Source: Alphaproteobacteria bacterium
GTDB lineage: Bacteria; Pseudomonadota; Alphaproteobacteria; Rhodobacterales; Rhodobacteraceae
Length of the DNA: 64,000 nucleotides
Direction of reading: 5' to 3'
Assembly (NCBI GenBank): GCA_030428355.1
Contig: JAUIBL010000022.1
Coordinates: forward strand, 1-64,000
Positions 28,206 to 44,019 of this stretch are shown here, one piece after another. Made by a program: the position numbers and the translations under genes. The notes below the pieces were generated by a model. It saw nothing but the letters and a program-made list of their open reading frames with translations, was not told the origin of the DNA and made no database searches. Within the stretch, counting starts at the first letter, position 1, and each line of letters starts with the position of its first letter.

Positions 28206-28288
28206 CTCGATCGAGCCCCCGCCTTTGGCTTGTTTTTGTGTCGGGGCCCGGGCCATCGCTGAATGGCCCGAACAGTCTATCCTCTTGC

Positions 28289-31200
28289 TCAGATTGTGAC
28301 GTTGTTGATGTCGTCGTCGATGAGAACCGTGGCATCGCCCAGTTCATAAACATCGTAGCTTTGGCCGTCCTCGGTCCGGCTTCCGGTGCGCGTGGCGCCG
28401 GTAATGCGTACGGATTCGTCCCGGTTGCCCAGAACGCGGACGGTGTTGTCCTCGCCGGTCATCGCAACGATCTGCGCCTCGGTGATGGTCAGCGTCGCCT
28501 CTTCGGTGAACTCGAGGTCGATCACGTCGATCTCGCGCCCGCCGATATTGCTGGCGAGGCTCACATTGCTGCGGCTGACATCCGGATCGCCCAGCACCAC
28601 GTAAGTGCCGGTGCTGTTGCCCGCGCTGTCGGTTGCGGTGACCACAAGGTGCGATCCGTCGGGCACCACGTTGTTGAAGGTGTAGCTGGTCTCGCCGGAG
28701 GCGCGAATATCCTGATCGTCAAAGCCAACCGTCTGCACACCACCTGCACCGACCCGCACGATGGACACATCATGATCCGAGGTTTCGAGGAAAATTCCGC
28801 GCGGAGCCTGTGCCTGATCCCACAGGATCGCCGTCATATCCGGCGCGTCGGGGGCCACGTTGTCCACCACCATGGTTTCGGTGATCGACTTGGTGTTGCC
28901 CGCCCGGTCGGTCGCGGCGATCTGGATCGACACGGTGTCGCCATCGGCTGTCGGGATCACGCTGGCGGGAACCGCCACGGACCATGTGCTGCCGCTGACC
29001 TGCGCGGTCATGCGCTGGCCGCCGATCGTGACCTGCACGGTCGAGCCCTGCTCGACCTGACCGGTCAGGGTAAAGCCCTGTTCGGCCTCGGCTTCGCTGA
29101 CGACACCATCCGCGCCACCCGGTCGGCTGGTCGAGGTCAAAGGCACCACTTCGGTGTCGACCTGGAACGTCTTTGAGGTGGTCGCCGTATTGCCGGCCCG
29201 GTCTTCGGTGCTGATCTGTGCGGTGGTCGTGTATGTCCCATCCGGCAGATCGAGGCCCGAGAAGCGCGCGGTCCAGTTGCCGGCAGCGTCCACAGTTGCC
29301 ACGCGGCTCACGCCTTCGACAACCACGGTCACGGTTGCACCGGGTTCGGTAGTGCCGCTCAGTGTGACGCCCTGCCCCTGTTCGGCGGCGTTGACGATAT
29401 TGTCGGCAGTGACCGGGTTCGCGCTGACCGCAAAGTTCCGCACGAAGGTATCGACCATCACGGTGTCGGAGCGTGTCAGCTCGTTGCCCGCCGCATCGAC
29501 GGTATAGGCGGTGATCTGCGCCTCGTATTCGCCGGGGCGGATTTCACCGGCGGCATAATTGGCGCGCCATGTGCCGAACCCGTCGGTCTGGACGGTCTTG
29601 CTGACGCCGTCCAGCGTGACATCGACCATCGCAAACGGGGTCGAGGTGCCGGTGATCACAACGCCATCGGACGCTTCGACCTGGTTGATGATGTCATCGG
29701 TTTCGATCGGCGCGGGGCTGATCGTCAGAAGGCCCGCATCGGTGTCGAACACGACGTTGCGCGTCTCGATGGCCGTGTTGCCCGCAAGGTCGGTCGAGCT
29801 GGCCGTCAGCGTCGCGGTCTGTTCGCCGCTGGGCAGTTCGTTCGCGGTAAAGGTCACGGTCCAGTTGCCCTGCGCATCGACGCTGGCGCTGCGCGACACG
29901 CCGCCCAGCATGACGGAGACCGACGCGCCCGGCTCGGTTGTGCCGGTCACGACCATGCCCTGTGCGGCCTCTTCGGCGTTCACGATGCCGTCGGCACCGC
30001 CCGCCTGGCTGGTGATGTCGAAATTGCGCACCCATGTATCAAGCACGACCTGCCCGGTCGCGCTGCTGGTGTTGCCCACCTCGTCGGTCGAGGTCGCGTT
30101 GATCGTCAGGTTCTGTTCGCCCACCGGAATTTCCGTGGCGATGAAGGTCACCGACCAGTTGCCCTGCGCATCCACAAAGGCGGTGCGGGTATAGCCGTTC
30201 ATTTCCACGACGACAGTCGATCCCACATCCGTGGTCCCGGTGATCTGGACACCGTCCGACCGCTCGTCCGCGTTGATGATGCCATCGGTTTCGATGGTGG
30301 TGGTGTTGATCGTGACACCCGAGACCGTGTCGATCTCGATCCCGTCATTGATCGTGGTCGAGTTGTTGAAGCTGTCCGTTGCGATAACGCGGATGTCTTC
30401 GATATATTCACCCCGCTCGAAGGTCGAGCTGGTCAGCGTCACGCTCCAGTTGCCCTGGGCATCGACCTCTGCCACATGGCTCACGCCACCGGCAATCAGG
30501 ACAACACTCGCGCCGATTTCCGTGGTGCCGGTCACCGTCGCACCGCCGTCGAATTCGATCTCGGTGATGATGTCACCACTGGACGTGGTGCCGCTTGTGA
30601 TCACAAGCGGTGGAGGCGTTGTGTCGATGATCACGGTCGGGCCGGTCAGATCGGTTTTTGTTCCGCCGCCGCCCGTCACGGTGACGGTTGTTGTATAGCT
30701 GCCATCCGCCGGGAAGTTGGGACCGTTGAAGATCACCTGCCAGGTGCCATCTGTGCCGGTGGTGGTGGTCTGTGTCTTGTCGCCGATCACGACGACAACC
30801 GTATCCCCGGACTCAGCCGTGCCACTGACCAAAACCGAGCGGTCCTCTTCGGTCAGGCCATCGCCGCCGATCACGTATTCGCCGTCATTCACCGTGGGCG
30901 TCCGGGGGCCACCGCTTTCGCCGTCATTGCCGGTCAGGCTCCCGCCACCAGTGCCTCCGCCGCCATTGCCGTCGCCGCCCAGAACAGCCGCGCCCGTGGC
31001 AACCGCCGCACCGCCTGCCAGCCAGGGCAGCATCCCGCCACCCGCCAGAAGGCCCGCCGCCAGCATGGACACACCGCCTTCGTCTTCGGCGGCCACGTAA
31101 TCGGCTGCAACCACTTCGGCGCGGTCAAAGAAGATCAGGCTGTCATCCGGGCTCCATTTGCCCCAGGCCGCCACATCGGCATATTGCGCAAACAGCGCGC

Positions 31201-31489
31201 CGCCGTCGCCTTCGGCAAAGGCCACTTCGCTCAGGACCCCGTCGGTGCTGAGGAACAGTCGGCTGCCCGATCCGAAATAATCCTCGAGGACGATCACACG
31301 TCCGTCTGCCAGAAGGATGTGCAGGTCGTTTTCGGCGCGGTCGTAGCTGCGCAGATCACTTCTGTGAAGGTTCAGGGAAACTTCGCGGCCGCCGGACGCG
31401 TCGATCAGGTAGCCCAGATCGCTCTCACCAACAACACCACGCTCAACCCCACCCGTACGTGTACGGACCACGAAATTAATCGCATTCAT
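28289..31489 (-). CDS. Large Ig-repeat adhesin, probable type I secretion substrate (BapA-like)
   Basis: The 1066-residue protein has no Sec signal. Residues 1-130 resemble the BapA prefix domain (INFVVRTRTGG and LLADGRVIVLEDYFG). A hydrophobic Ala/Gly segment (about 140-185) contains AAG motifs of the kind cut in periplasmically retained adhesins. Seven or eight Ig-like repeats of about 95 residues follow, with the pattern VTGTTEPGASVxV, VDAQGNWxVTF, AGNT and VxxDT. The last 90 residues (LTITEAQIVAMTGEDNTVRVLGN to ATVLIDDDINNVTI) are the probable secretion module. No RTX nonapeptides are seen. It is first in the operon with its own secretion genes. A surface adhesion or biofilm role is inferred. 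Confidence 0.88.
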   Translation of the reverse strand: MNAINFVVRTRTGGVERGVVGESDLGYLIDASGGREVSLNLHRSDLRSYDRAENDLHILLADGRVIVLEDYFGSGSRLFLSTDGVLSEVAFAEGDGGALFAQYADVAAWGKWSPDDSLIFFDRAEVVAADYVAAEDEGGVSMLAAGLLAGGGMLPWLAGGAAVATGAAVLGGDGNGGGGTGGGSLTGNDGESGGPRTPTVNDGEYVIGGDGLTEEDRSVLVSGTAESGDTVVVVIGDKTQTTTTGTDGTWQVIFNGPNFPADGSYTTTVTVTGGGGTKTDLTGPTVIIDTTPPPLVITSGTTSSGDIITEIEFDGGATVTGTTEIGASVVLIAGGVSHVAEVDAQGNWSVTLTSSTFERGEYIEDIRVIATDSFNNSTTINDGIEIDTVSGVTINTTTIETDGIINADERSDGVQITGTTDVGSTVVVEMNGYTRTAFVDAQGNWSVTFIATEIPVGEQNLTINATSTDEVGNTSSATGQVVLDTWVRNFDITSQAGGADGIVNAEEAAQGMVVTGTTEPGASVSVMLGGVSRSASVDAQGNWTVTFTANELPSGEQTATLTASSTDLAGNTAIETRNVVFDTDAGLLTISPAPIETDDIINQVEASDGVVITGTSTPFAMVDVTLDGVSKTVQTDGFGTWRANYAAGEIRPGEYEAQITAYTVDAAGNELTRSDTVMVDTFVRNFAVSANPVTADNIVNAAEQGQGVTLSGTTEPGATVTVVVEGVSRVATVDAAGNWTARFSGLDLPDGTYTTTAQISTEDRAGNTATTSKTFQVDTEVVPLTSTSRPGGADGVVSEAEAEQGFTLTGQVEQGSTVQVTIGGQRMTAQVSGSTWSVAVPASVIPTADGDTVSIQIAATDRAGNTKSITETMVVDNVAPDAPDMTAILWDQAQAPRGIFLETSDHDVSIVRVGAGGVQTVGFDDQDIRASGETSYTFNNVVPDGSHLVVTATDSAGNSTGTYVVLGDPDVSRSNVSLASNIGGREIDVIDLEFTEEATLTITEAQIVAMTGEDNTVRVLGNRDESVRITGATRTGSRTEDGQSYDVYELGDATVLIDDDINNVTI

Positions 31490-31656: not shown

Positions 31657-32748
31657 TCAGAAAACGTCGATAACGCTATGATTTTGTGCGGATTCCTGCG
31701 CCGCAATCCCCATTCGGACAGCCCATGCACCGTCTTGCAGCGACACTTCCGGAACCCCACCATTTCGCACCAGATCCAGGAACCGCGCATGCTGATAGAA
31801 GGTCGATCCATTGTGATCGCCCGCATCAAGGATGGTCGGATCGACCGGAATATCCACCGCTTGCGGCCCTTTCGGATGGCGCGGGCTGATGATCACCTGC
31901 GCCACCGGGGGCGCGCCCAGATGGGTCGGCCAGAACCGGCCCGGACCGGGCACAAAGGCCTCGATCTTGCCGTTCGGCCCCACCGCGCTGATCTCTTCCT
32001 GGTACTTGGAGCCTTCCGCATACATGCACAATTCCAGCATCGCCCGCGCGCCATTGGCGAAATCGACGATCACGTAGGCGGTGTCCCAGATGTCGGGCAC
32101 TTCGCCATTATACGCCTCATCCAGATGGTTCACCTCCTGCCCCGCGCTGGCCGTCACCCGCACCGGGTCCGAGCCAAGGATCAGTCGCATGAGGTCGAAG
32201 AAGTGACAGCACTTCTCGACCAAAGTCCCCCCGGTGTTCCGGTTGAAGCGGTTCCAGTCCCCCACCTTGTGCAGGAAGGGAAAGCGGTGCTCGCGGATGG
32301 TCAGCATCTTCACCCCACCGGTGGCGCGCTGCACCTCCTCGGCAAAGGTCTGGATCGGGGGCATGTAGCGGTATTCCATCGCCACCCAAATCGGTGCGGG
32401 GTAGCTCGCCGCAATCGCGTCGATGCGCGCGATGTCGGCGGGGTCGGTATAAAGCGGCTTTTCCATCAAGAGCGGCAGCGGGTTGAGTTCCGCGATCTGC
32501 TCCAGCGCGTCGATGTGGCAATGGTTGGGGCTCGCTACGAGCAGACAGTCAAGATCATCGCGCGCCAGAAGATCGGCTATCGACGCCTCGAGCGTTGCGT
32601 TCACCGCAATCGCCTTGGCCGCGGCCGCCATGATCTCGTCCGGCTCATAGATCGCCGCCACCCGCGCGCCGTCAAGCAGGGCGATATTGCGCAGGTGCTC
32701 TTGTCCCATCATGCCGCATCCGATGATGCCGTAGTTGATGACTTTCAT
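31657..32748 (-). CDS. Gfo/Idh/MocA-family protein, candidate NAD-dependent sulfoquinovosidase (SqgA/GH188-like)
   Basis: The 363-residue protein has an N-terminal NAD-binding Rossmann domain (YGIIGCGMMGQEHLRNIALL, about residues 5-24), the EKPLYTD motif near residue 95 that supplies the conserved Lys of the family, and a C-terminal domain with GGTLVEKCCHFFDLMRLILG. Family members oxidise sugars, but related NAD-dependent glycosidases use transient oxidation to cut glycosides, and GH188 members (SqgA) act on sulfoquinovosyl glycerol. The three enzymes beside it match sulfoquinovose monooxygenation, and no GH31 sulfoquinovosidase is present, so this is the natural candidate. A simple sugar dehydrogenase remains possible. 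Confidence 0.7.
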   Translation of the reverse strand: MKVINYGIIGCGMMGQEHLRNIALLDGARVAAIYEPDEIMAAAAKAIAVNATLEASIADLLARDDLDCLLVASPNHCHIDALEQIAELNPLPLLMEKPLYTDPADIARIDAIAASYPAPIWVAMEYRYMPPIQTFAEEVQRATGGVKMLTIREHRFPFLHKVGDWNRFNRNTGGTLVEKCCHFFDLMRLILGSDPVRVTASAGQEVNHLDEAYNGEVPDIWDTAYVIVDFANGARAMLELCMYAEGSKYQEEISAVGPNGKIEAFVPGPGRFWPTHLGAPPVAQVIISPRHPKGPQAVDIPVDPTILDAGDHNGSTFYQHARFLDLVRNGGVPEVSLQDGAWAVRMGIAAQESAQNHSVIDVF

Positions 32749-32762
32749 GTCTGTCCTTCAGG

Positions 32763-32815
32763 TGATGCGCGCGACATCGCGCGACTTAAGTGATGCGCGC
32801 GACATAGCGCGCGAC
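32763..32815. repeat. Short tandem duplication at the 3' end of the GntR gene
   Basis: TGATGCGCGCGACAT followed by (A)GCGCGCGAC-type sequence occurs twice, at 32763-32785 and 32791-32815, separated by TTAAG. The second copy encodes the last residues (DVARYVARIT) of the GntR protein on the minus strand; the first lies just after its stop and still reads RDVARIT in another frame. It looks like a local duplication of the gene end. Confidence 0.7.
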
Positions 32816-33487
32816 GTCTGTGTTGATCCAGTTCCACGAGGCTTCGGCCGCCTCGCCCTCGGGGCCGTAACTGACGCGCGTGGCCCGCATGCAGGGTTGT
32901 CCGGCGGACAGGCCAAAACTGGCAGGGGCCCAGTCCGGCACGGTATCCAGATCCAGCCGGTCCACCGCCTTGGTGATCCAGAGACCCAGCGATTCCCGGT
33001 AGTAGAGGTAGAGCGACTCGCGCAGGGCCACGGCGTCGATCTGATCGACGTAACTGCCATCAAGCCAGATCTCTTCGAGCACCGCCGGGACACCATTCAA
33101 CCGCCGCAAGCGGCGAATCCGGTGGCCTTCGTCAGAGCTGCCAAAGCGCGGCAAGCCGTCAGGTTTGGCAAGCCGCGTCACCGACAGAAGCTCTGCCGTC
33201 GGCAATCCGCCCCCCTCGATCAGCTCGACCCGGAAGAAGGCATAGACCGACTGCGTGTCCTCCTGCGCGCAGACATAATTGCCCGACCCCTGCACCCGCT
33301 CGAGCAGGCCCAGCGCCGTCAATTCATCCAGCGATTTCCGCAAGGTGCCCACCGAAATGCCAAGCCGCGCCGCCATGTCCCGTTCGGGCGGCAGGCGTTC
33401 ACCATCGACCAGACGACCAGCCTGAATGTCGCGGATCAGCAATTCGCTGATCTGCACGTATTTCGGCAGGGCGTGGGTGTCGGACAT
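32786..33487 (-). CDS. GntR-family regulator (HutC/UTRA type) of the sulfoquinovose-type operon
   Basis: The 233-residue protein has a GntR winged helix (about residues 5-70; KYVQISELLIRDIQAGRL, ERLPPERDMAARLGIS and VGTLRKSLDELTALGLLERVQGSG) and a UTRA effector domain (about 85-230) that binds sugars or small acids. It is divergent from the monooxygenase gene, and an inverted repeat between them is a likely operator. The ATG giving MSDTHALPK was preferred to a GTG eight codons upstream. Sulfo-SMO clusters in Agrobacterium also carry a GntR-type regulator, from memory. Confidence 0.88.
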   Translation of the reverse strand: MSDTHALPKYVQISELLIRDIQAGRLVDGERLPPERDMAARLGISVGTLRKSLDELTALGLLERVQGSGNYVCAQEDTQSVYAFFRVELIEGGGLPTAELLSVTRLAKPDGLPRFGSSDEGHRIRRLRRLNGVPAVLEEIWLDGSYVDQIDAVALRESLYLYYRESLGLWITKAVDRLDLDTVPDWAPASFGLSAGQPCMRATRVSYGPEGEAAEASWNWINTDVARYVARIT

Positions 33488-33495
33488 TTCTCGCA

Positions 33496-33530
33496 CCAAA
33501 AATTGATACACTATTGATCTACATTTTTGG
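33496..33530. promoter_or_regulatory. Candidate GntR operator
   Basis: CCAAAAAT (33496-33503) and ATTTTTGG (33523-33530) form a perfect 8-bp inverted repeat with a 19-base spacer that itself holds TTGATA and TTGATC. It sits in the 85-base divergent region between the GntR gene and the monooxygenase gene, and the sequence is markedly A+T-rich. Confidence 0.5.
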
Positions 33531-33572
33531 CAGTGCTACGCAAGAGGAAATGATGCGCCCCGGAGACACCTT

Positions 33573-34727
33573 ATGACCATCGTGCCGATCACCTCACCCG
33601 ACCTCGACGCGGTGGAGGTTTCGTGGTTCGCGGCGCTGTGTTCGGATGACTACGAATTCCTCGGCGTGCCTGACGGAAAACTGCGCTCCAGCTTTGCGCA
33701 TTGCTCCTCCATCGTGAAAGAGGCCGAGGCGCAGGGCTTCCGCAACATCCTTTGCCCGTCGTCTTATCAGGTTGGACAGGACACGTTGTCCTTTGTCGCC
33801 GGCTGCGCGCCGATCACCGAGAAGATCAACATGCTGGCCGCCGTGCGCTGCGGCGAGATGCAACCGATCATGCTGGCCCGCACGATTGCCACGCTCGACC
33901 ACATGCTCGAAGGGCGGTTGACGGTGAACATCATCTCCTCGGACTTCCCGGGCGAGAAGGAAGACAGCAAGCTCCGCTACCAGCGGTCGCGCGAGGTGGT
34001 GGAGATCCTCAAGCAGGCCTGGACGCAGGGCGAGATCACCTACAAGGGCGATGTCTACAATTTCGAAGGGCTGACCACCGATCCGGCGGTGCCGTATCAG
34101 ACAGGTGGCCCGCTCCTCTATTTCGGCGGCTATTCCCCCGACGCACTGGAACTCTGTGGCCAGCATTGCGATGTCTACCTCATGTGGCCCGAGCCGAAAG
34201 AGGCGCTGGCCCAGCGGATGAAAGACGTGAACGCGGTGGCCGAACGCTATGGACGCACGCTGGATTACGGTCTGCGCGTGCATGTCATCGTCCGCGACAC
34301 CGAGGCCGAAGCGCGCGAATACGCGCAGCACATCGTGAGCAAGCTGGACGACGAACAGGGCAGGACGATCCGCGAACGGGCACTGGACGCGACCTCGCTT
34401 GGCGTGTCGCATCAGGCCAAGAACCGCGAACTGGCGGATATGGAAGGCTTTGTGGAGCCGCATCTCTGGACCGGTGTGGGCCGGGCGCGGTCGGGCTGTG
34501 GTGCGGCGCTGGTGGGGTCCACCGATCAGGTGCTGAGCGAATTGGAGCAGTACCAGAAGATGGGCATCCGCGCCTTCATCCTGTCGGGCTATCCGCATCT
34601 GGACGAATGCCGCCATTTCGGCAGCCGGGTCTTGCCGCAACTGAAGACCGTGCAACTGAACCATGCCTACGGCCGTGTGCCCGCGGGCACGCCGATGACG
34701 CCTCTGGGCGCCGGGGAGCGTCGCTGA
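33573..34727 (+). CDS. smoC: LLM-class flavin-dependent monooxygenase, probable sulfoquinovose monooxygenase (SmoC-like)
   Basis: The 384-residue enzyme belongs to the SsuD branch of the bacterial luciferase-like family (FAHCSSIVKEAEAQGFRNILCPSS, LTVNIISSDFPGEKEDSKLRYQRSREVVEIL, then RARSGCGAALVGSTDQV). SsuD-type enzymes use FMNH2 and O2 to cleave C-S bonds of sulfonates, releasing sulfite. In the sulfo-SMO pathway SmoC turns sulfoquinovose into 6-oxo-glucose. The following aldo/keto reductase and flavin reductase are exactly the other two pathway enzymes, which makes this assignment stronger than the generic alkanesulfonate monooxygenase label. The start follows CCGGAG. Confidence 0.82.
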   Translation: MTIVPITSPDLDAVEVSWFAALCSDDYEFLGVPDGKLRSSFAHCSSIVKEAEAQGFRNILCPSSYQVGQDTLSFVAGCAPITEKINMLAAVRCGEMQPIMLARTIATLDHMLEGRLTVNIISSDFPGEKEDSKLRYQRSREVVEILKQAWTQGEITYKGDVYNFEGLTTDPAVPYQTGGPLLYFGGYSPDALELCGQHCDVYLMWPEPKEALAQRMKDVNAVAERYGRTLDYGLRVHVIVRDTEAEAREYAQHIVSKLDDEQGRTIRERALDATSLGVSHQAKNRELADMEGFVEPHLWTGVGRARSGCGAALVGSTDQVLSELEQYQKMGIRAFILSGYPHLDECRHFGSRVLPQLKTVQLNHAYGRVPAGTPMTPLGAGERR

Positions 34728-34744
34728 TGCCGCTGCACGGTTTA

Positions 34745-34789
34745 CCAGAATTTTATGGAGCGCGTTTAGATTCTTCTACGAAGAATCTA
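34745..34789. repeat. Dispersed palindromic intergenic element, copy 2
   Basis: CCAGAATTTTATGG (34745-34758) is followed by an inverted repeat, TAGATTCTTC (34767-34776) with GAAGAATCTA (34780-34789). Block and spacing match the copy at 11582-11626, while the palindrome arms differ by paired changes. It sits inside the operon between the monooxygenase and the aldo/keto reductase, so it is transcribed. A 54-codon frame (34727-34891) crosses it, starts at the preceding stop (TGATG) and ends at the next gene; this is probably fortuitous. Confidence 0.75.
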
Positions 34790-34893
34790 GCCACAAGGCG
34801 CAAATCAAACCGCAAAGCAAATGCGTCCCAAGCAACGGCGCGCGGCATGTCTCAGCTCCACAAACCGAAAACTACGAACGCACAAGGATGACC

Positions 34894-35781
34894 ATGGACC
34901 GCGTAAAACTCAACGACGCCCTTGAAATGAGCCGCCTTGTCTATGGAATGTGGCGGCTGGGTGACGATGCCGACACCAGCGTGGACCACATCCGCAACAA
35001 GATCAGCGCCTGCCTCGATCAGGGTATCACCACAATGGATCAGGCGGATATCTATGGTGGCTACGAGGCCGAGGAAATACTGGGCACCGCGCTCACCCCC
35101 GAGCTGCGCAACCGGATCGAGATCGTCACCAAATGCGATATCGTGGCCCCGGTGGGGCGCTATTCAAACGCACGGGTCAAATACTACGACACGTCACGCG
35201 CGCACATCCTGTCTTCAGTCGACCATTCGCTGCGGCTGATGAAGATCGACCATATCGACCTTCTGCTGATCCACCGCCCCGACCCGCTGATGGATGCCTG
35301 CGAAACCGGAGCGGCGCTGGACGAGGTTGTGGCAAGCGGCAAGGTCCGCGCGGTTGGCGTGTCGAACTTCCGTCCCTGGGATTGGGAGCTGTTGCAGGCG
35401 TCAATGAAGACCCCGCTCGTCACCAATCAGATCGAGATCAGCCTGTTGCATCACGCGCCCTTCACCAATGGCGACATCGCGTTCCACCAGAAGAACGGCC
35501 AGCCGCCGATGGCGTGGTCGCCGCTGGGGGGCGGTGCGCTTTTCGAACAGCACAACGCGGCGCTGCGCACCGCGCTCAAGACCATCGGCGATGATCACGG
35601 TGTCGATGAAGCGGCCGTGGCGGTCGCTTGGCTCTTGGCGCATCCGGCGCGCATTCTACCTGTCCTCGGCACCAACAATCTGGACCGCATCGCCCGCATC
35701 GGCGATGCTGCGAAGATACAGATCGACCGGGAGACATGGTTTGACCTTTACACCCACGCCCTTGGCCATGAAGTGGCCTGA
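34894..35781 (+). CDS. smoB: Aldo/keto reductase, probable 6-oxo-glucose reductase (SmoB-like)
   Basis: The 295-residue TIM-barrel reductase has the aldo/keto reductase tetrad at D49, Y54, K80 and H127 (MDQADIYGGY, IVTKCDI, LLIHRPDP) and the C-terminal cofactor region GTNNLDRIARIGDA, where phosphate-binding residues of NADPH usually lie. It resembles the YdhF subgroup. In the sulfo-SMO pathway SmoB reduces 6-oxo-glucose to glucose with NADPH. The ATG at this position has AAGG at 7 bases; another ATG two codons upstream is possible. It is flanked by the monooxygenase and flavin reductase genes. Confidence 0.82.
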   Translation: MDRVKLNDALEMSRLVYGMWRLGDDADTSVDHIRNKISACLDQGITTMDQADIYGGYEAEEILGTALTPELRNRIEIVTKCDIVAPVGRYSNARVKYYDTSRAHILSSVDHSLRLMKIDHIDLLLIHRPDPLMDACETGAALDEVVASGKVRAVGVSNFRPWDWELLQASMKTPLVTNQIEISLLHHAPFTNGDIAFHQKNGQPPMAWSPLGGGALFEQHNAALRTALKTIGDDHGVDEAAVAVAWLLAHPARILPVLGTNNLDRIARIGDAAKIQIDRETWFDLYTHALGHEVA

Positions 35782-35789
35782 GACACGCG

Positions 35790-36296
35790 ATGAACGCCTT
35801 GACGCATAGCTTCGATCCCGCACAGGACAACAGCCGCGACTTTCGCGATGCGCTTGGCCGTTTCGGAACCGGGGTCACGATCGTCACCTGCGATGCGGGC
35901 GACGGGCCTCTGGGCATCACCGCCAACAGCTTTGCCAGCGTGTCGCTTGACCCGCCGCTGGTGCTGTGGTCGCCGGCGAAATCGTCAAGCCGCTATCCCT
36001 TCTTCATGGCGGCCGATCATTTTGCGATCCACGTCGTAGGGGCAGAGCAGGCCGGGCTGTGCACCGCCTTTGCCCGCAACGGCAACGCGTTCGATCAGTG
36101 CGACTGGGACACAGGCGACAAGGGCGTGCCGCTGCTTCACGGCTGTCTGAGCCGGTTCGAATGCACCAAGGTGGCCGAGCATGACGGCGGCGATCATTCC
36201 ATCGTCGTCGCGCGTGTGCGCCGGGTGACCACGCGGGCAGGAGACCCGCTTCTGTTTTTCAGCGGACGCTACGGAGGATTTACCGAAGCGACATAA
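35790..36296 (+). CDS. smoA: Flavin reductase, probable SmoA-like FMN reductase
   Basis: The 168-residue protein has the split-barrel flavin reductase fold (DIM6/NTAB family): RDALGRFGTGVTIVTCDAG, GITANSFASVSLDPPLVLWSPAKSS and the terminal LLFFSGRYGGF. These enzymes reduce FMN with NAD(P)H and hand FMNH2 to a two-component monooxygenase. The partner is evidently the LLM monooxygenase two genes upstream. It begins 8 bases after the aldo/keto reductase stop. Confidence 0.85.
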   Translation: MNALTHSFDPAQDNSRDFRDALGRFGTGVTIVTCDAGDGPLGITANSFASVSLDPPLVLWSPAKSSSRYPFFMAADHFAIHVVGAEQAGLCTAFARNGNAFDQCDWDTGDKGVPLLHGCLSRFECTKVAEHDGGDHSIVVARVRRVTTRAGDPLLFFSGRYGGFTEAT

Positions 36297-36365
36297 ACCG
36301 CCCCGAGAAAACACAAAAAACGGGGCCACCGGCGGGAGACCGGTGTGGGACTGGGAGGAGGCCTG

Positions 36366-36944
36366 ATGGCCATTTTGCTTTGGCTCTTGAAGCCATTGGA
36401 AGCCATGCTCGACATCGTTCTGCGGGTCGGTCGCTGGATTGCGGTGGTCGCCATTGGGATGATGGTCTGCGCCATTCTCCTGCAGGTCTTTTGTCGGTAT
36501 GTCCTCGGCAACGCCCTGCCCTGGCCCGAGGAAGCGGCCATCTTCCTGATGCTCTGGATGACCGCCGTCATCGCGCCCTCGGCCTACAGGCGGGGTGGCT
36601 TTGTCGCGCTGGAGTTCCTGTCCTCGGCGCTGCCCCAACGCGGCGCGGCTGTGCTGGCGCTGGTTCTACTGCTGATCTCGGGCATGGTGCTTTATATCGG
36701 CGCACAGATGGGGCTGACCGAAATGAGCGGCCTGGCCGGCAAGTTCAAAAGCGCCTCTCTCAAATATCCCACGCTGGAGGGTTGGGAAAAGATGCCGAAC
36801 TCCTGGCAGATTGCGTCGCTGGTGACCGGGCTGTGGCTGCTCTTCATCGTCAACATCGAATTGATCCTGCGCAACCTCATCACTCTGGCCGGAGGGGGCG
36901 ACCGGTTGCGCTCGCCTCTCGATGCCGAGCTGACGGTGGAGTGA
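36366..36944 (+). CDS. dctQ: TRAP transporter small permease (DctQ type)
   Basis: The 192-residue inner-membrane protein has four transmembrane helices and the DctQ signature around VFCRYVLGNALPWPEEAAIFLMLWM. It pairs with the large DctM subunit to form a Na+-driven importer served by a periplasmic binding protein. The ATG is preceded by GGAGGAGG. Gene order Q-M-P is contiguous with the monooxygenase genes, so the transporter probably brings in the sulfonated sugar or its glycoside. Confidence 0.92.
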   Translation: MAILLWLLKPLEAMLDIVLRVGRWIAVVAIGMMVCAILLQVFCRYVLGNALPWPEEAAIFLMLWMTAVIAPSAYRRGGFVALEFLSSALPQRGAAVLALVLLLISGMVLYIGAQMGLTEMSGLAGKFKSASLKYPTLEGWEKMPNSWQIASLVTGLWLLFIVNIELILRNLITLAGGGDRLRSPLDAELTVE

Positions 36945-36948
36945 TCCC

Positions 36949-38238
36949 ATGCTGGTCTGGTTCCTGCCTCTCTTCCTGCTGTTCCTGATGATCGGCCTGC
37001 CGGTGTTCTTCGGCATGCTCGCGGCCCCCGGCATTCTGCTCTGGCTTAATGGTCAGGACCGCGATCTGATCCTGCTCTATCGCAACGTCTATAACGGCAT
37101 GGCGTCTTTTCCGCTGATGGCGATCCCGTTCTTCATGCTGGCGGGCGAGCTGATGAACCGCGGCGGCATCACCATGCGGCTGGTCGAATTCAGCCAGGCG
37201 ATGATGGGCCATTTCCGCGGCGGTCTGGCGCATGTGAACGTGCTCAGCTCGATGCTGTTTGCGGGTCTGTCCGGATCTGCCGTAGCGGACACCTCGGCGC
37301 TTGGGTCGATGCTGATCCCAGCGATGGAGAAAGAAGGCTATACCCGCAAATTCGCCGCCGCGATCACCGCCGCAAGTTCGGTGATCGGCCCGATCATCCC
37401 GCCCTCGGGCATCATGATCATCTACGCCTACGTCATGGGCGAATCCGTCGCGGCCCTGTTCCTTGCGGGCATCGTCCCGGGCATCCTTGTCGGTGTCGGC
37501 CTGATGATCATGGTCAAGTTCATGGCCGACAAATACGACTTCCCCGCCTCGCGCCAAAAGGCAAGCTGGGGCGAACGCGGCAATGCCTCGCTCAAGGCGT
37601 TCTTCCCGCTGATGACCCCGGTGATCATCCTGGGCGGCATCCTGGGCGGTGTCTTTACCCCGACCGAGGCCGCTGCCGTGGCTGTGGGCTATGCGATCAT
37701 CGTCGGCATGTTCATTCTGCGCACCCTGTCGATCCGCGATCTGCCGGATGTGTTCATGCGCGCCGCCATGACATCCGCCACGGTTCTTCTGCTCGTGGGG
37801 GCTGCGATGGCGTTCAAGACGGTGGTGTCGCTGTCACACACCCCCGAGATCTTGGCCGAATTCGTGCTGGGCCTGAGCCAGAACCCGTTGATCCTGCTCT
37901 TCCTGATCAACCTGCTTCTGTTCGTCGTGGGCATGTTCCTCGATGCAGGTCCGGCGATCATCATCCTCGGGCCGATCCTCGGGCCGATCTTCGTCGATCT
38001 GGGGGTCGATCCGATCCATTTCGCGATCATCATGTCCGTCAACCTGACAGTGGGTCTGGCCACACCGCCGATGGGACTCGTTCTTTTCGTCGCCTCAAGC
38101 GTGTCCGGCGAACGGGTCGAGACCATCTCCAAGGCGATCCTGCCGTTCCTTTTCATCGAAATCGTGGTGATCTTCCTGATCACCTTCATCCCGGAAATCT
38201 CCATGACCATTCCGCGCCTGACCGGGTTCGCGGACTGA
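36949..38238 (+). CDS. dctM: TRAP transporter large permease (DctM type)
   Basis: The 429-residue protein is a 12-13-helix membrane subunit of the ion-transporter superfamily, with the conserved FAGLSGSAVADTSALGSMLIPAMEKEGY, SVIGPIIPPSGIMIIYAY and GLATPPMGLVLFVASSVSG segments. It forms the elevator-type transport path with DctQ. It starts 4 bases after the dctQ stop. Confidence 0.96.
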   Translation: MLVWFLPLFLLFLMIGLPVFFGMLAAPGILLWLNGQDRDLILLYRNVYNGMASFPLMAIPFFMLAGELMNRGGITMRLVEFSQAMMGHFRGGLAHVNVLSSMLFAGLSGSAVADTSALGSMLIPAMEKEGYTRKFAAAITAASSVIGPIIPPSGIMIIYAYVMGESVAALFLAGIVPGILVGVGLMIMVKFMADKYDFPASRQKASWGERGNASLKAFFPLMTPVIILGGILGGVFTPTEAAAVAVGYAIIVGMFILRTLSIRDLPDVFMRAAMTSATVLLLVGAAMAFKTVVSLSHTPEILAEFVLGLSQNPLILLFLINLLLFVVGMFLDAGPAIIILGPILGPIFVDLGVDPIHFAIIMSVNLTVGLATPPMGLVLFVASSVSGERVETISKAILPFLFIEIVVIFLITFIPEISMTIPRLTGFAD

Positions 38239-38296
38239 CATCTGCGGGTCACACGGCCCGTGTAACCGACCACGAGAAAGCAACAGGGAGTACACC

Positions 38297-39355
38297 ATGC
38301 TCAAAGGTCTTACAAAAGTGGCACTGACGGCGGCCTTGCTCGCCGGAAGCGCAATGACAGCGGCGGCACAGGATTTCACCATCCGCGCCACGGCCAACTC
38401 GAACGAAAACGACGAGGATTATGACGGCCTCGTGGTCTTCAAGAACCATGTCGAGAACGCTTCGAACGGCCGCATCGCGGTGGAGCTGTTCATCGGCACG
38501 CAGCTTTGCTCGGGCGGTGCGGAATGTCTGCAGGGTGTGTCCGACGGCTCCATCGACGTCTTCGTGACAACCTCGGGCGGTGCGGCGGGCATCTTCCCCT
38601 ACGTTCAGGTGCTCGACCTGCCCTACCTGATGTCGGATGACCGCGTGGCAGAGCACGTGCTGTCGGGCGATTTCACCCGCACCATGCGCAACATGGCGCT
38701 TGAGGATTCGGGCGACACGATCCGCATCATGACCATCGGCAACACCGGCGGCTGGCGTAACTTTGCCAACACGCAGCGCCGCATCACCAAGCCCGAGGAT
38801 CTGGCCGGTCTCAAGATCCGCACCGTCGTCGCCGACCTGCCGCAGGAGCTGGTCAAGGTGCTGGGTGCCGCCCCGACCCCGATCAGCTGGCCGGAACTCT
38901 TCACCTCGATCCAGACCGGTGTGGTGGACGGCTCCAAGAACGGCATCACCGACATCATGGGGATGAAGTTCCCGGATGCGGGTCTGCAATACCTGACGCT
39001 CGACGGCCACGCCTATATGGGCGCCATCTGGGTGATGAACAACGCCAAGTTCATGGACATGCCCGAAGACCTGCGCCGCGTCGTGGTCGACGGCTTTGCA
39101 GCACTCCAGCAGGCGACCTTCGCCTCGCCCAAGCGCAAGTCGATCCAGGCCTACGAGGAATTCGTCGCGGGTGGCGGTGATCTCTACGTGCCGACGCCGG
39201 AGGAAAAGGAAGCCTTCCGCGAGGCAGCCGCCCCGGTCTTTGACTGGTTCCAGGAAAACGTCGACGGCGGTCCGGAAATCTTCGAGGCGCTGATGAAAGC
39301 CGTGGCTGAAGCCGAGGCCGATCTGGCGGCAGAATACGAAGCTGACCTGAACTGA
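38297..39355 (+). CDS. dctP: TRAP transporter substrate-binding protein (DctP type)
   Basis: The 352-residue periplasmic protein has a Sec signal peptide (cleavage after AAAQ or TAAA near residue 24) and the DctP fold with the ligand-arginine region DLAGLKIRTVVADLPQELVKVLGAAPTPISWPELFTSIQTGVVDG. In most TRAP proteins an Arg in this IR motif binds the carboxylate of the ligand; a sulfonate could be held in the same way. It is the last gene of the operon and has a terminator. Ligand identity is inferred from the neighbours only. Confidence 0.93.
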   Translation: MLKGLTKVALTAALLAGSAMTAAAQDFTIRATANSNENDEDYDGLVVFKNHVENASNGRIAVELFIGTQLCSGGAECLQGVSDGSIDVFVTTSGGAAGIFPYVQVLDLPYLMSDDRVAEHVLSGDFTRTMRNMALEDSGDTIRIMTIGNTGGWRNFANTQRRITKPEDLAGLKIRTVVADLPQELVKVLGAAPTPISWPELFTSIQTGVVDGSKNGITDIMGMKFPDAGLQYLTLDGHAYMGAIWVMNNAKFMDMPEDLRRVVVDGFAALQQATFASPKRKSIQAYEEFVAGGGDLYVPTPEEKEAFREAAAPVFDWFQENVDGGPEIFEALMKAVAEAEADLAAEYEADLN

Positions 39356-39539: not shown

Positions 39540-39933
39540 TGTAAACGAGAAGAAGCGGCGCCGCCCCGTTGGGCCTGACGGTTCTCTCAACATCCCCGAT
39601 TCAACGGGCGACCTGTACTTGGGGGAGACCCAAGCCTGTACGGAAACCGGTCTCTCATGGTCAGCCTTCCGGCGTGTGAGAGGGTGTCAGTTGTCGTCCA
39701 CGCGGCCTGGGAGTGACCCTACCCGCTCGATGCGCATCGTGGGCGGGGGTATGGGGGAAGGTTGGTTAACGGGGCGGAAATGGGGCGTGCGGTGAAAACG
39801 AGACTATTCCACTTGCGACATGGCAGTCGGTTGTCACACTCTTGTTGGCCATACTTTCGCATTCTCGAATAACAAGCGTCTATGCCGACATGCCACAACA
39901 TGGTATGGTAGCTCATTAAAAGAGGAATTTGAG

Positions 39934-40413
39934 ATGCGTTATCATTTTTCAACGCTTGTATTATCTCTGACTCTCGGAGCAACAAGCCCAGTCGCGACGT
40001 CTGCTTTGGCTGACGAGGTGCCCGACCCTATCGCTGTGATGACCGAACTGACGGAAGTTGTCTGCATAGCTCCACAGAACACCGGGAGTTATTCAGAAAC
40101 CCTTGTTCGCGCCGATGCAGAAGTCGAGGTTGCAAAAATATTGAAGTCACTCGTCGGAGCGGGCGCTTCCGCCGAATTCCTCGACAAACAAATCAGCTAC
40201 GTAAACGCGCTACGCGATGGTGAACTGGCCAATCAGATCCAGTCGGCCCAAGACTGCCGACTTATGGTCTTCAACCATTACAGCCCGTTGGTGCAAGATT
40301 GGATTAAGCAAGGAATGCAGGGATCAAACGACGGCTCTGTTTCGGTGACTGGAGATTGTAATGCGACAACGGTCGATGCCTCAGGCAACACAGTTACCGT
40401 GGCTTGTAACTAA
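39934..40413 (+). CDS. Secreted protein of unknown function with C-terminal Cys motif
   Basis: The 159-residue protein has a Sec signal peptide (cleavage near SALA, residue 26). The mature part has scattered Cys and ends in a motif at residues 138-158: VTGDCNAT, then NTVTV and a final Cys, with Cys142 and Cys158 16 residues apart. The next gene carries the same motif with identical spacing. AGAGGA precedes the ATG. The base composition of this gene pair is visibly A+T-richer than its neighbours, suggesting recent acquisition. I recognise no family. Confidence 0.75.
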   Translation: MRYHFSTLVLSLTLGATSPVATSALADEVPDPIAVMTELTEVVCIAPQNTGSYSETLVRADAEVEVAKILKSLVGAGASAEFLDKQISYVNALRDGELANQIQSAQDCRLMVFNHYSPLVQDWIKQGMQGSNDGSVSVTGDCNATTVDASGNTVTVACN

Positions 40414-40987
40414 GGCATCCGTTTGCGGACTTCTGTTCTGCGGGCTCGGTTCCATTGCCATAGCTCAAGATGCAACACCTTCGGTTGACGTAAAAGGCAA
40501 CTGCAACGCAACGATATCGGGGGGATCGTCGAATGTCGTGAACGTCTACTGCGGGTCCGCGGAAGATGTTCCGAACTCGGAGACGACATCTTCAAACACG
40601 CTTGTCATTCATGCGAATGGCCCAACCGTTCTTCTGTATCAACCAGACGGAATTGGTGGGTTCACGCCGTTTCAGTTTTACCCCGATGTCGTCAACTTCT
40701 CGGCAAGCACTTTTCGTCTCGAAATCGGTGATGATGTTTTTCGAAACGATTTCGTTGATCAATTTAGTTTTGGCAAAATCGAGAGCAAAGACAGCCTGAA
40801 GCCGTTTGAGATGAAGCTGCGCCTTCAATATTTCAATGGTATGGCAACAGAAGCGAATTGTGCCGGTTTTCTCAACATCGAATCTGACGCCGTCATTAGC
40901 CCCAAGATAAATGTGGTGGTCGACGCTATGACGGGGCAGACCTATGCACCGAATTGCTGGTTCGACGTGAGTTCTGCGACGGGATAA
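40361..40987 (+). CDS. Secreted protein of unknown function sharing the Cys motif
   Basis: The 208-residue protein has a signal-like hydrophobic segment (about residues 18-35, cleavage near AIAQDA) and then VKGNCNAT...NVVNVYC at residues 44-64, matching the C-terminal motif of the preceding protein with the same Cys spacing (Cys48, Cys64). The rest is beta-rich and acidic (FQFYPDVVNFSASTFRLEIGDD) with a Cys pair near the C-terminus. GGAG lies 6 bases before the ATG. The gene overlaps the previous one by 53 bases in another frame, within the motif-coding part. Function unknown. Confidence 0.72.
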   Translation: MRQRSMPQATQLPWLVTKASVCGLLFCGLGSIAIAQDATPSVDVKGNCNATISGGSSNVVNVYCGSAEDVPNSETTSSNTLVIHANGPTVLLYQPDGIGGFTPFQFYPDVVNFSASTFRLEIGDDVFRNDFVDQFSFGKIESKDSLKPFEMKLRLQYFNGMATEANCAGFLNIESDAVISPKINVVVDAMTGQTYAPNCWFDVSSATG

Positions 40988-41037: not shown

Positions 41038-41514
41038 TTACCGAAACGGGTAGAGCCAGACCCTGTAGTCATCCACGAGCTGTTGCGCATGTTCGATCTG
41101 ATCCGGCGTCATTTTCTTGACCACCTCCTCGACCGAAATGGCCGCGTCGGGGTCTCCGCCGATGGTGCTGAGCTGGTACCAGAGGAACGCGCGGACGAGG
41201 TCCGGGGCGGGCAGGCCGAGGCCGGTTTCATAGTACCAGCCGACGCCCGATTGTGCGCCCGCATGGCCCTTCATGGCCGACCGCAGATACCAGTCGAAGG
41301 CGCGGACATAGTCCTGATCGACGCCCAGACCCAGCGCGTACATGACGCCGATCAGTTCCTCGGCCTCGGCATTGCCCGACCGCGCGGCGGGCCAGAGGCG
41401 GTCATAGGCCTCTTCAAAGCGGCCCTCTTCCATCAGGTCGCGCGCGTCTTCGATGTCGGCCAGCACCGGGGTCGCGAGCAGGGTGAGGGCAAACATCCAA
41501 TGGGTCAGCTTCAT
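41038..41514 (-). CDS. Secreted Sel1-repeat protein
   Basis: The 158-residue protein has a Sec signal (cleavage after VLA, near residue 19) and two or three Sel1/TPR-like helical repeats: ARSGNAEAEELIGVMYALGLGV, DYVRAFDWYLRSAMKGHAGAQSGVGWYYE and DLVRAFLWYQLS. Such solenoids mediate protein contacts in the periplasm. The start codon lies inside the 5' end of the divergent peroxidase gene. The partner is unknown. Confidence 0.85.
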   Translation of the reverse strand: MKLTHWMFALTLLATPVLADIEDARDLMEEGRFEEAYDRLWPAARSGNAEAEELIGVMYALGLGVDQDYVRAFDWYLRSAMKGHAGAQSGVGWYYETGLGLPAPDLVRAFLWYQLSTIGGDPDAAISVEEVVKKMTPDQIEHAQQLVDDYRVWLYPFR

Positions 41515-42807
41515 CTTGGTTTGCTCGTCTCTTTGTCTCTGGCCGCACCTGCCGTGGCCCAACCGATCAGCGCCGAGGATTTCATCGCCTTCGATGCCGA
41601 TCAGGCGCGGCTGGGTCAACTCCTTTTCTACGACAAGATTTTAAGCGGGAACAAGAACATCTCCTGCGGCACATGCCATCATCACGACCTTGGCGGGACC
41701 GATGGTCTCTCGCTGGGTATTGGCGAGGGCGGCGTCGGGCTGGGGCCCAAGCGCACACCCGGCGACGGCGCGGATCGCATCCGCAAGCGCATCCCGCGCA
41801 ACGCGCCGGCGCTGTGGAACCTCGGGCACAAGGACGTGCGGGTGCTGTTCCATGACGGGCGGCTGGAAATCTCGGACATCTACGGCAACGGATTCGACAG
41901 CCCCGCTGAGGAATGGCTGCCGCAAGGGCTGGAGACGATCCTTGCCGCGCAGGCGCTGTTCCCGATGACGGCGCAGTTCGAAATGGCCGGGAATACCGGC
42001 GAGAACGAGGTGATCGGCGCGGTGACCGACCGGATCGACCTGGGCTGGCCGATCCTTGCCAAACGGGTCCGGACGATCCCGGAATACGGGCAGATGTTCG
42101 TTGACGCGTTCGACCATATCGACAGACCCGAGGACGTGACCATCGTCGAGATCGGCAATGCGCTGGCCGCGTTCATAGGCACCGAATGGGCGAATTACGA
42201 CAGCCCCTATGATGTGTTCCTGACCGACGGCACGCCCCTGCCCGAGGATGCCGAACGCGGGCGGCAGTTGTTCTTTGGCGAGGCGCGTTGTGCGCAATGC
42301 CACAACGGCCCGCTGCTGACGGATCAAGACTTTCACGCGATGGCCCTGCCCCCGTTTGGCCCCGGTCGGACCCGTCAGTGGGATCCGATCCCGCGCGATG
42401 TCGGGCGGATGGGCGCGACCGATGATCTGGAGGACGCCTATCGGTTCCGCACGCCCCCGTTGCGCAATGTGGCGCTGACCGCGCCCTATGGGCATAACGG
42501 TGCCTATGCGAGCCTGCGGGACATGGTGCGTCACATGGCCGATCCCGTGTCGATGCGCGCCGACTGGACACCGGCGCGCGCGGCGCTGCCAGAGGTGCCG
42601 TGGTTGCAGCAGATCGACTATGTCATTCAGTCCGACCGGCTGGAGATGGAGCGCCATGCAGCCACATTGGATGTGCGCCCCGTGTCCCTGACCGAGGCGC
42701 AGGTGGACGATCTGGTGGCGTTTCTGGAAAGCCTCACCGGGGTGACGGCACTGGAGCGTCCATTGGGGCGTCCGGATCGGGTGCCCAGCGGGCTGCCGGT
42801 GGATTGA
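41500..42807 (+). CDS. Di-haem cytochrome c peroxidase / MauG-like protein
   Basis: The 435-residue periplasmic protein has a signal peptide (cleavage near AVAQ, residue 21) and two c-type haem sites: CGTCHH near residues 56-61 and CAQCHN near 265-270. The fold is that of bacterial cytochrome c peroxidases (NAPALWNLGHKDVRVLFHDGR; RFRTPPLRNVALTAPYGHNGAYASLRDMV). It reduces H2O2 or performs MauG-like oxidation using electrons from small cytochromes. The ATG, with GAGGG upstream, overlaps the start of the divergent Sel1 gene by 15 bases; a TTG seven codons in would avoid this but shortens the signal peptide. Confidence 0.9.
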   Translation: MGQLHLGLLVSLSLAAPAVAQPISAEDFIAFDADQARLGQLLFYDKILSGNKNISCGTCHHHDLGGTDGLSLGIGEGGVGLGPKRTPGDGADRIRKRIPRNAPALWNLGHKDVRVLFHDGRLEISDIYGNGFDSPAEEWLPQGLETILAAQALFPMTAQFEMAGNTGENEVIGAVTDRIDLGWPILAKRVRTIPEYGQMFVDAFDHIDRPEDVTIVEIGNALAAFIGTEWANYDSPYDVFLTDGTPLPEDAERGRQLFFGEARCAQCHNGPLLTDQDFHAMALPPFGPGRTRQWDPIPRDVGRMGATDDLEDAYRFRTPPLRNVALTAPYGHNGAYASLRDMVRHMADPVSMRADWTPARAALPEVPWLQQIDYVIQSDRLEMERHAATLDVRPVSLTEAQVDDLVAFLESLTGVTALERPLGRPDRVPSGLPVD

Positions 42808-43407: not shown

Positions 43408-44019
43408 TCAGAGGCCGGACACCCGTTTCAGGTGGCCCAGGATTTCGTCCACCCCCTGATCGTGGCGGATGGCGGCAAAAACAAAGGGACGGCCTTCGCG
43501 CATCTTGGTGGCGTCGCGGTCCATCACCTCGAGCGAGGCACCGACATGCGGCGCGAGGTCGGTCTTGTTGATCACAAGGATGTCCGACCGGGTCAGCGCG
43601 GGCCCGCCCTTGCGGGGGATCTCCTCACCCGCCGCCACGTCGATCACATAGAGCGTCACATCCGCCAGTTCCGGGCTGAACGTGGCCGAGAGGTTGTCAC
43701 CGCCGCTTTCGATCAGCACGACTTCGACATCGGGATGACGTTTGACCATCTCAGCGACGGCCGCAAGGTTGATCGACGCGTCCTCGCGGATGGCGGTGTG
43801 CGGGCAGCCGCCGGTTTCGACCCCGATCACCCGATCCTGCGGCAGGATCTGCATCCGCATCAGCGCCTCGGCGTCTTCCTGCGTGTAGATGTCATTTGTG
43901 ATCACACCCACCGAATGGGTGTCCTTGAGCCGTTTCGCCAAGGCTGCAGTGAGCGAGGTTTTCCCCGCACCGACAGGGCCACCGATGCCTACTCGAAGGG
44001 GTCCGTTGCGGGGGCTCAT
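43408..44019 (-). CDS. ureG: Urease accessory GTPase
   Basis: UreG hydrolyses GTP to drive nickel insertion into the urease active site. The 203-residue protein has the P-loop [11 protein letters not shown] (13-23), the Ni-binding [13 protein letters not shown] motif (Cys-Pro-His), DIESGGDNL-type Walker region ([19 protein letters not shown]) and NKTDL. It is last in the urease operon; the start overlaps the ureF stop by 4 bases. Confidence 0.97.

Follow-up and report, generated by a model that had tools for sequence, protein, structure and literature searches.

Plant and algal sulfolipids have sulfoquinovose (SQ) as their sugar head group. The 64,000-nucleotide stretch analyzed here (the window; positions 1 to 64,000 of contig JAUIBL010000022.1, assembly GCA_030428355.1) carries what is very likely an SQ utilization operon of the sulfoquinovose monooxygenase type (sulfo-SMO) from a Marivita-like marine roseobacter, in which uptake of SQ glycosides by a tripartite ATP-independent periplasmic (TRAP) transporter is joined to a cytosolic route through a GH188 sulfoquinovosidase and SmoABC. 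A first-pass annotation of the window had proposed a sulfo-SMO operon with a TRAP importer at 31657..39355. The sulfo-SMO (sulfo-ASMO) pathway of Agrobacterium and Novosphingobium was reportedly described by Sharma in 2022; its enzymology is already known, and the parts for which we found no account are the link to the transporter and a downstream gene pair encoding a Sel1-repeat protein and a di-heme peroxidase. Annual SQ production is put at about 10 billion tons in the text of Kaur (2023; PMC10755693), and marine roseobacters are among the organisms that consume it. We found no account of SQ uptake by roseobacters in the literature searched, supplements aside.

Gene Content and the Sulfo-SMO Enzymes

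The source assembly totals 3.56 Mb in 83 contigs, of which the window is contig 65, and is 87% complete; the window's SmoC shares 97% identity with the Marivita cryptomonadis protein. Predicted features (window coordinates, strand, description, and basis) are:

31657..32748, minus strand, GH188 NAD+-dependent sulfoquinovosidase, SqgA-type, Gfo/Idh/MocA fold (structure matches and conserved residues)
32786..33511, minus strand, GntR-type regulator with UTRA domain (Pfam GntR, UTRA)
33502..33524, plus strand, operator-like site ATTGATACACTATTGATCTACAT between divergent gntR and smoC (0 mismatches to consensus)
33573..34727, plus strand, SmoC, FMNH2-dependent sulfoquinovose monooxygenase (Bac_luciferase; 7oh2)
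34888..35781, plus strand, SmoB, 6-oxo-glucose reductase, aldo/keto reductase (Aldo_ket_red; 7bbz/7bby)
35790..36296, plus strand, SmoA-type flavin reductase (Flavin_Reduct PF01613, 135.6 bits)
36345..36944, plus strand, DctQ, TRAP small permease (PF04290)
36949..38238, plus strand, DctM, TRAP large permease (PF06808, TIGR00786)
38297..39355, plus strand, DctP-type solute-binding protein, proposed SQ/sulfoquinovosyl glycerol receptor (PF03480)
41038..41514, minus strand, Sel1-repeat secreted protein (PF08238)
41500..42807, plus strand, MauG-like di-heme cytochrome c peroxidase (PF03150)

The gene content and positions given by the first-pass annotation for 31657..39355 hold: all eight open reading frames (ORFs) are intact and match their families above the Pfam cut-offs. 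By ORF coordinates, a 61-bp gap separates the two minus-strand genes from the six divergently transcribed plus-strand genes, and the latter (33573–39355) follow one another on a single strand with intergenic gaps of 160, 8, 48, 4, and 58 bp. The block was compared with the best 80 of 555 confirmed SmoC relatives, hence with close relatives only; SmoB comes after SmoC in all 80 loci, with GH188 upstream of them in 78 and the full DctQMP set downstream in 54. On this conservation, the block is not a chance assembly.

Against solved structures, the luciferase-like monooxygenase (LLM) scores highest with 7oh2 (691 bits; 297/383 identical positions, 77.5%) and 7olf (677 bits), which we take to be SmoC structures, although their PDB titles read alkanesulfonate monooxygenase and methanesulfonate sulfonatase; SsuD structures reach only 184–194 bits (1m41, 184). 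The aldo/keto reductase is equally clear, scoring 420 and 419 bits with 7bbz and 7bby, presumably SmoB, vs. 210 for the next structure, YdhF. The flavin reductase belongs to the right family (PF01613, 135.6 bits) and has 4xhy as its best structure (160 bits), so the SmoA label stands at family level. It is extremely improbable that the genes instead serve generic SsuDE-like sulfonate scavenging under sulfur limitation, with the LLM enzyme an ordinary alkanesulfonate monooxygenase: the protein does match the SsuD families TIGR03565 and NF001939 (242 and 237 bits), but below their cut-offs (518 and 510), SmoC structures outscore SsuD by more than 3.5-fold, the genes for SmoB and GH188 are neighbors, and no ATP-binding cassette (ABC) importer is encoded among the eight operon genes. 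A generic alkanesulfonate monooxygenase was rejected on family and structure scores, and the protein does not cluster with that group, which had been named as the outcome that would overturn the assignment. By these comparisons the block is a genuine sulfo-SMO operon.

As in the Agrobacterium and Novosphingobium operons, to the extent that the review PMC9594981 sets them out, SmoC, SmoB, and a SmoA-type flavin reductase are encoded together and would convert SQ to sulfite and 6-oxo-glucose, and the latter to glucose. The window differs in having a TRAP transporter in place of the Agrobacterium ABC importer and GH188 in place of a GH31 sulfoquinovosidase, in having no exporter gene in the operon, and in the Sel1/peroxidase pair downstream. 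It shares clade and enzymes with the GH188-bearing Roseobacter sulfo-SMO clusters treated in part of Kaur (2023; PMC10755693).

The smoC-smoB spacer (34728–34887, 160 bp) contains a near-perfect hairpin at 34768–34788; in most relatives smoB almost abuts smoC.

A GH188 Sulfoquinovosidase in the Operon

The first-pass annotation gave the right family, Gfo/Idh/MocA, for the protein encoded at 31657..32748, and missed its role. The protein matches 8zn9 with 542 bits (66.8% identity), ArSqgA (8qc3) with 366 bits, and FlSqgA (8qc2) with 363 bits, and the next structure scores 68. The 8qc3 and 8qc2 enzymes are GH188, NAD+-dependent sulfoquinovosidases, and the structural account of ArSqgA in the same source names R166, L170 (backbone), and K172 as sulfonate contacts and K107, Y136, E189, H193, and H321 as further residues (Kaur 2023; PMC10755693). 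All eight are conserved in the window protein; E163 of that paper corresponds to V in the ArSqgA numbering used here, and the adjacent E is conserved. On these scores and conserved residues, the protein is a GH188 sulfoquinovosidase, a gene near-universal in Roseobacter sulfo-SMO clusters according to the part of that study that covers them.

With GH188 present, SQ glycosides could serve as the starting substrate of the operon. Since the enzyme requires NAD+ and, by inspection, has no signal peptide, the glycoside would have to enter the cell whole. The first-pass statement that no GH31 sulfoquinovosidase adjoins was literally right, and GH31 has no match anywhere in the 87%-complete genome.

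Conservation and Distribution of the TRAP Transporter

The DctQMP proteins form a DctP-type TRAP transporter: PF03480, PF04290, and PF06808 all match above cut-off, and the receptor has the Arg/Arg/Asn site. NF037995 also matches above cut-off; TIGR00787 (dctP) falls below (148 vs. 175). Besides the 54 loci with complete DctQMP in the same place, 2 of the 80 are cut inside the transporter, 5 stop short of where it would lie, and 19 extend for over 6 kb and carry no TRAP genes. In one locus, L078, an MFS-like gene occupies the position of GH188. ORF clustering, with only sample members of the clusters scanned, places ABC-type transporter genes in the flank of 12 of these 19. Five of the 12 (L014, L023, L025, L030, and L034) carry a cluster that in L025, the locus sampled for it, contains an alpha-amylase-type gene, and for this reason the ABC-type genes in these five may import another sugar. 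On the SmoC tree, the TRAP label requires 14 changes, at least 6 of them on well-supported branches; therefore, the importer has been repeatedly gained or lost. Of 24 plasmid records with a SmoC match, the 4 examined (Ruegeria sp. TM1040, Salipiger, Roseivivax, and a Rhizobium) all have the TRAP layout; with these added, the sample totals 84 loci, 58 with TRAP. The large permease falls into two length classes, 420–439 aa (36/59) and 480–499 aa (22/59), with one cut; the extra residues of the long form lie mid-protein (L009, L015–L019, L031, and others).

In 149 Rhodobacterales genomes searched for DctP (family threshold, E ≤ 1e-90), SmoC, GH188, peroxidase, and Sel1, DctP occurs in 61, SmoC in 74, and GH188 in 83, and the GH188 set is the exact union of the other two. 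All 61 DctP genomes have GH188 (Fisher p = 1.9e-23). DctP and SmoC lie 4.4–4.9 kb apart in 50 of the 52 genomes with both; in the remaining two, G077 and G084, they are on different contigs.

The Same Transporter in Probable Sulfoglycolytic Operons

Nine of the 149 genomes have DctP and GH188 with no SmoC match. Genes for the TRAP transporter, the peroxidase, and Sel1 are present in all nine loci (L118–L126), together with those for a PfkB kinase and a fucose-isomerase-like protein; a LacD-type aldolase is found in 8, GH188 lies in or just past the stretch in all 9, and tblastn finds a DeoR-type regulator rather than GntR in 7, with family scans of the sulfoglycolytic genes covering L124 and L118. 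The isomerase SqvD is common to routes resembling the second sulfoglycolytic Embden-Meyerhof-Parnas pathway (sulfo-EMP2), as the relevant section of the review PMC9594981 has it, and we read L118–L126 as probable sulfo-EMP2-like operons. Such sulfo-EMP/EMP2-type operons in nine Rhodobacterales genomes would thus share TRAP, GH188, and the Sel1/peroxidase pair with the window and differ in the enzymes between, with isomerase, kinase, aldolase, and a DeoR-type regulator in place of the monooxygenase and GntR. Their DctPs are 66–79% identical to that of the window, and their best SMO-linked matches are at 71–86%. The occurrence of one TRAP transporter with two unrelated SQ pathways points strongly, if indirectly, to a shared entry compound, SQ or sulfoquinovosyl glycerol (SQGro), as the ligand. 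The DctP family, confined to GH188-bearing genomes and common to two catabolic routes, is therefore a candidate marker for sulfoquinovoside uptake.

The GntR Regulator and Its Operator-Like Site

The true start of GntR is, by inspection, probably an internal ATG near 33487. A 23-bp site, ATTGATACACYATTGATSTACAT, occupies 33502–33524 in the gntR-smoC gap; it is perfect in the window and has no further match at up to three mismatches in the window or in the 3.56-Mb assembly. At least 19 of its 23 positions are kept in 74 of the 80 loci, with the consensus drawn by eye from the same loci, and the 21,152-base loci have no such match outside the smoC promoter region. In G084, where TRAP is unlinked from smoC, dctQ is preceded at a distance of about 200 bp by a sequence that matches the SMO operator at 19/23 positions. 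A promoter and terminator scan gave counts close to those of shuffled sequences.

The earlier inference that the operon imports its substrate by TRAP is thus backed, as far as sequence comparison reaches, by the conserved position of the transporter, by ABC-type genes near loci that lack it, by its presence with a second SQ pathway, and by the operator in G084.

Sulfite Handling

The genome encodes SoxC (582 bits, above cut-off) and a SorA-like enzyme (164 bits, below cut-off). No sulfite exporter gene lies in the operon: TauE has 8 matches in the genome, 7 above cut-off, with none in the operon, and the YeiH exporter has no match in the 87%-complete genome. By coordinates, one TauE gene lies about 2.7 kb from the SorA-like gene. 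YeiH is present in 9/58 TRAP and 3/19 non-TRAP loci. Among the TRAP loci, this putative sulfate exporter occurs in 6 of the 18 without a flanking peroxidase (L020, L029, L047, L071, L106, and L108) vs. 3 of the 40 with one.

Proposed Route and Ligand of the TRAP Transporter

In the route that we propose, SQ glycosides, most likely SQGro, would be bound in the periplasm by DctP through two arginines and an asparagine and imported by DctQM at the expense of an ion gradient. In the cytosol, GH188 would use NAD+ to split SQGro into SQ and glycerol; SmoC, supplied with FMNH2 by SmoA, would cleave the C–S bond of SQ to give sulfite and 6-oxo-glucose; and SmoB would reduce the latter to glucose. Sulfite would probably be oxidized by the SoxC or SorA-like enzyme encoded elsewhere in the genome, and GntR would repress from the operator at the divergent promoters until its ligand arrives. 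Gene identity, the conserved order, the co-occurrence of TRAP with GH188, and the same TRAP in a sulfoglycolytic cluster are observed, and from these we infer what the transporter carries, its coupling to ions, the regulation, the fate of sulfite, and every activity.

The receptor resembles IseP (8t9t/8te9), a DctP-type receptor with two Arg, an Asn, and a Trp whose ligand is a sulfonate, insofar as PMC11668362 describes it. DctP R154, R175, N215, and W198 align with IseP R156, R177, N217, and W200, and these four residues and C71 and C77 are invariant in the 70/70 DctP family members aligned. The two proteins are only 23% identical, and SQ is a far larger ligand.

Several observations weigh against uptake of SQ glycosides by this transporter or against other parts of the route. 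The IseP sulfonate contacts S95, N98, and Y153 are lost, aligning with T, G, and G in DctP, so that a sulfonate ligand is not proven by sequence. TRAP receptors that bind carboxylates, phosphates, or sulfonates all share the R/R/N site, in the account excerpted from PMC11668362. DctP is 17–28% identical to its 50 best structural matches, and its predicted fold (mean pLDDT 76) is that of an ordinary TRAP receptor with many equally similar, which makes the model uninformative for the ligand. Since 22 of the 74 SmoC genomes have no DctP-family TRAP, this transporter is not the sole possible importer. The operator is missing at the 19/23 level from 6 of the 80 loci and, in G077, where TRAP is also unlinked, from the stretch examined near TRAP. 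The L124 isomerase, the one scanned, does match the NCBIfam family for sulfoquinovose isomerase, but at 238 bits, under the cut-off of 700. Finally, the genome is 87% complete, and the absences of GH31 and YeiH are therefore provisional.

That the transporter imports neither SQ nor its glycosides but, for instance, a short sulfonate or some sugar acid, and just happens to lie in the operon, is improbable. The generic binding triad, structural neighbors that include sugar-acid and isethionate receptors, and the 20 DctP-family matches in the genome would all allow it; the confinement of this DctP family to GH188 genomes (61/61) would be hard to reconcile with it, as would its occurrence in two SQ gene clusters whose common steps are entry and SQGro hydrolysis. 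The TRAP transporter therefore very probably carries SQ or SQGro, to judge from its genomic company. TRAP ligands known so far are mostly small, which leaves some room for transport of free SQ only, with GH188 acting on something else or on glycosides taken up in some other way. Roseobacter growth on free SQ only was proposed by an earlier study (Liu 2023), as retold in a passage of Kaur (2023; PMC10755693). We regard this possibility as rather unlikely, given that GH188 accompanies TRAP in 61/61 genomes and that the need of GH188 for cytosolic NAD+ would fit import of intact SQGro; the shared entry compound is most likely SQGro.

The sole match for SQ together with a TRAP transporter in the literature concerned, in the portion that bears on it, a putative sulfolactate importer. 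The term TRAP is absent from the main texts of PMC13372026, PMC12890257, PMC9594981, and PMC10755693, and the main text of the last (supplements and figures aside) is also without transporter terms.

The Sel1/Peroxidase Pair

The first-pass annotation was correct about the genes in 31657..39355 but ended the unit too early: the conserved unit continues to about 42807 and takes in the Sel1/peroxidase pair. The two genes (Sel1, 41038–41514, minus strand; peroxidase, 41500–42807, plus strand) are divergent, with starts that overlap by about 15 nt. Three alignments (A1, A2, and A3) comprised 28/70, 18/52, and 31/51 sequences. The peroxidase matches PF03150 (CCP_MauG) with 118.1 bits against a cut-off of 25.6, and its CxxCH motifs (C56/C59/H60 and C264/C267/H268) are invariant in the 18 sequences aligned of 52. 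In a profile search, 6e1c, described as a MauG-like di-heme enzyme associated with copper homeostasis, comes first with 134 bits, and ordinary cytochrome c peroxidases follow at 121–133. MauG proper, which serves tryptophan tryptophylquinone (TTQ) biosynthesis, was rejected, the score with the equivalog family TIGR03791 being 112 bits vs. a cut-off of 444. The structure model is poor (mean pLDDT 64), and its fold matches were set aside. PF08238 is found in all 31 Sel1 members scanned (of 51), and their C-terminal WxYPFR is nearly invariant. The two overlapping plus-strand ORFs (197 and 208 aa) between dctP and the pair, at 39820–40987, have no Pfam match.

In the 149 genomes, with the peroxidase orthologue line set at ≥59% identity after the search result was seen (the next match is at 52%), the peroxidase occurs in 51, Sel1 in 52, and both in 50, the pair always within 3 kb; the DctP family is present in 50/51 and 51/52 of these, respectively. 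The peroxidase is found in 41 of the 52 genomes with SMO and TRAP, in 0 of the 22 with SMO and no TRAP, and in 9 of the 9 sulfoglycolytic genomes with TRAP. In the fetched loci, where counts are limited by 10-kb flanks, the peroxidase is found in 40/58 loci with TRAP and 1/19 without, and Sel1 in 40/58 and 0/19; the single exception, L011, is an SMO cluster with the peroxidase and no Sel1. By its occurrence, the pair appears to go with the transporter. The peroxidase is thus unlikely to guard against H2O2 from the monooxygenase, because it follows TRAP and not SmoC: it is absent from all 22 SMO genomes without TRAP and present in all 9 TRAP genomes without SmoC.

A secreted helical-repeat protein also accompanies a TRAP transporter in the Treponema TatT system (TPR-protein-associated TRAP, TPAT), as the relevant part of PMC5812351 describes; there the repeat protein belongs to the TAtT family, whereas that of the window is a Sel1 protein and is divergently transcribed. 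Sel1 as the T-component of such a system (TAtT, PF16811) was tried and rejected, with only weak matches in 2 of 31 members scanned (best E 0.011); one shorter Sel1 ortholog gave E 0.0089 and 15.8 bits against a cut-off of 26.5. A peroxidase paralogue (43–50% identity) lies about 9–24 kb from the SMO cluster in G102, G136, G131, G111, G043, G032, G002, and G047.

The pair may play no part in SQ use and be carried along by shared ancestry, a reading that we consider doubtful but that carries real weight. The pair is dispensable, since 11 of the 61 DctP genomes lack the peroxidase orthologue; a relatedness-controlled test of peroxidase against TRAP on the SmoC tree, with 5 supported pairs and no power, was non-significant (median p 0.25); G064 has a distantly related divergent pair (43 and 46% identity) and G087 a peroxidase by itself, both without SQ genes; and L011 has the peroxidase without TRAP. 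The neighbors of the SQ-unrelated loci in G064 and G087 gave no lead. Against a passenger stand the 0/22 vs. 9/9 split given above, the position of the peroxidase between dctP and the kinase in sulfoglycolytic loci, with a 4-nt stop/start overlap with the kinase in the three loci read, and the fact that the pair is kept together even away from dctP (G021, G025, and G026).

The pair, which goes with the transporter, hints that the use of sulfolipids may include a periplasmic step. Speculatively, and with low confidence, TRAP, Sel1, and peroxidase might form one periplasmic module for sulfoquinovoside capture that has been combined with two unrelated pathways in the cytosol; the peroxidase might do redox work needed for uptake, oxidizing an aromatic residue of the Sel1 WxYPFR motif or acting on a sulfolipid-derived substrate, with SQGro then handed to DctP. 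Among the papers listed for the peroxidase, none mentioned SQ, and the texts searched on Roseobacter sulfo-SMO clusters made no mention of the pair.

Flanking Genes

Upstream of the operon, a minus-strand region at 26874–31489 resembles a type I secreted adhesin locus: the 1066-aa product of 28289–31489 contains bacterial Ig domains in repeats and matches BapA_N weakly, slightly below cut-off, and a gene that by eye encodes a TolC-like outer-membrane protein (26874–28256) follows it. On the other side, just past a NUDIX gene, a UreG-like gene and further probable urease accessory genes, recognized by eye, occupy 43408–44672 on the minus strand.

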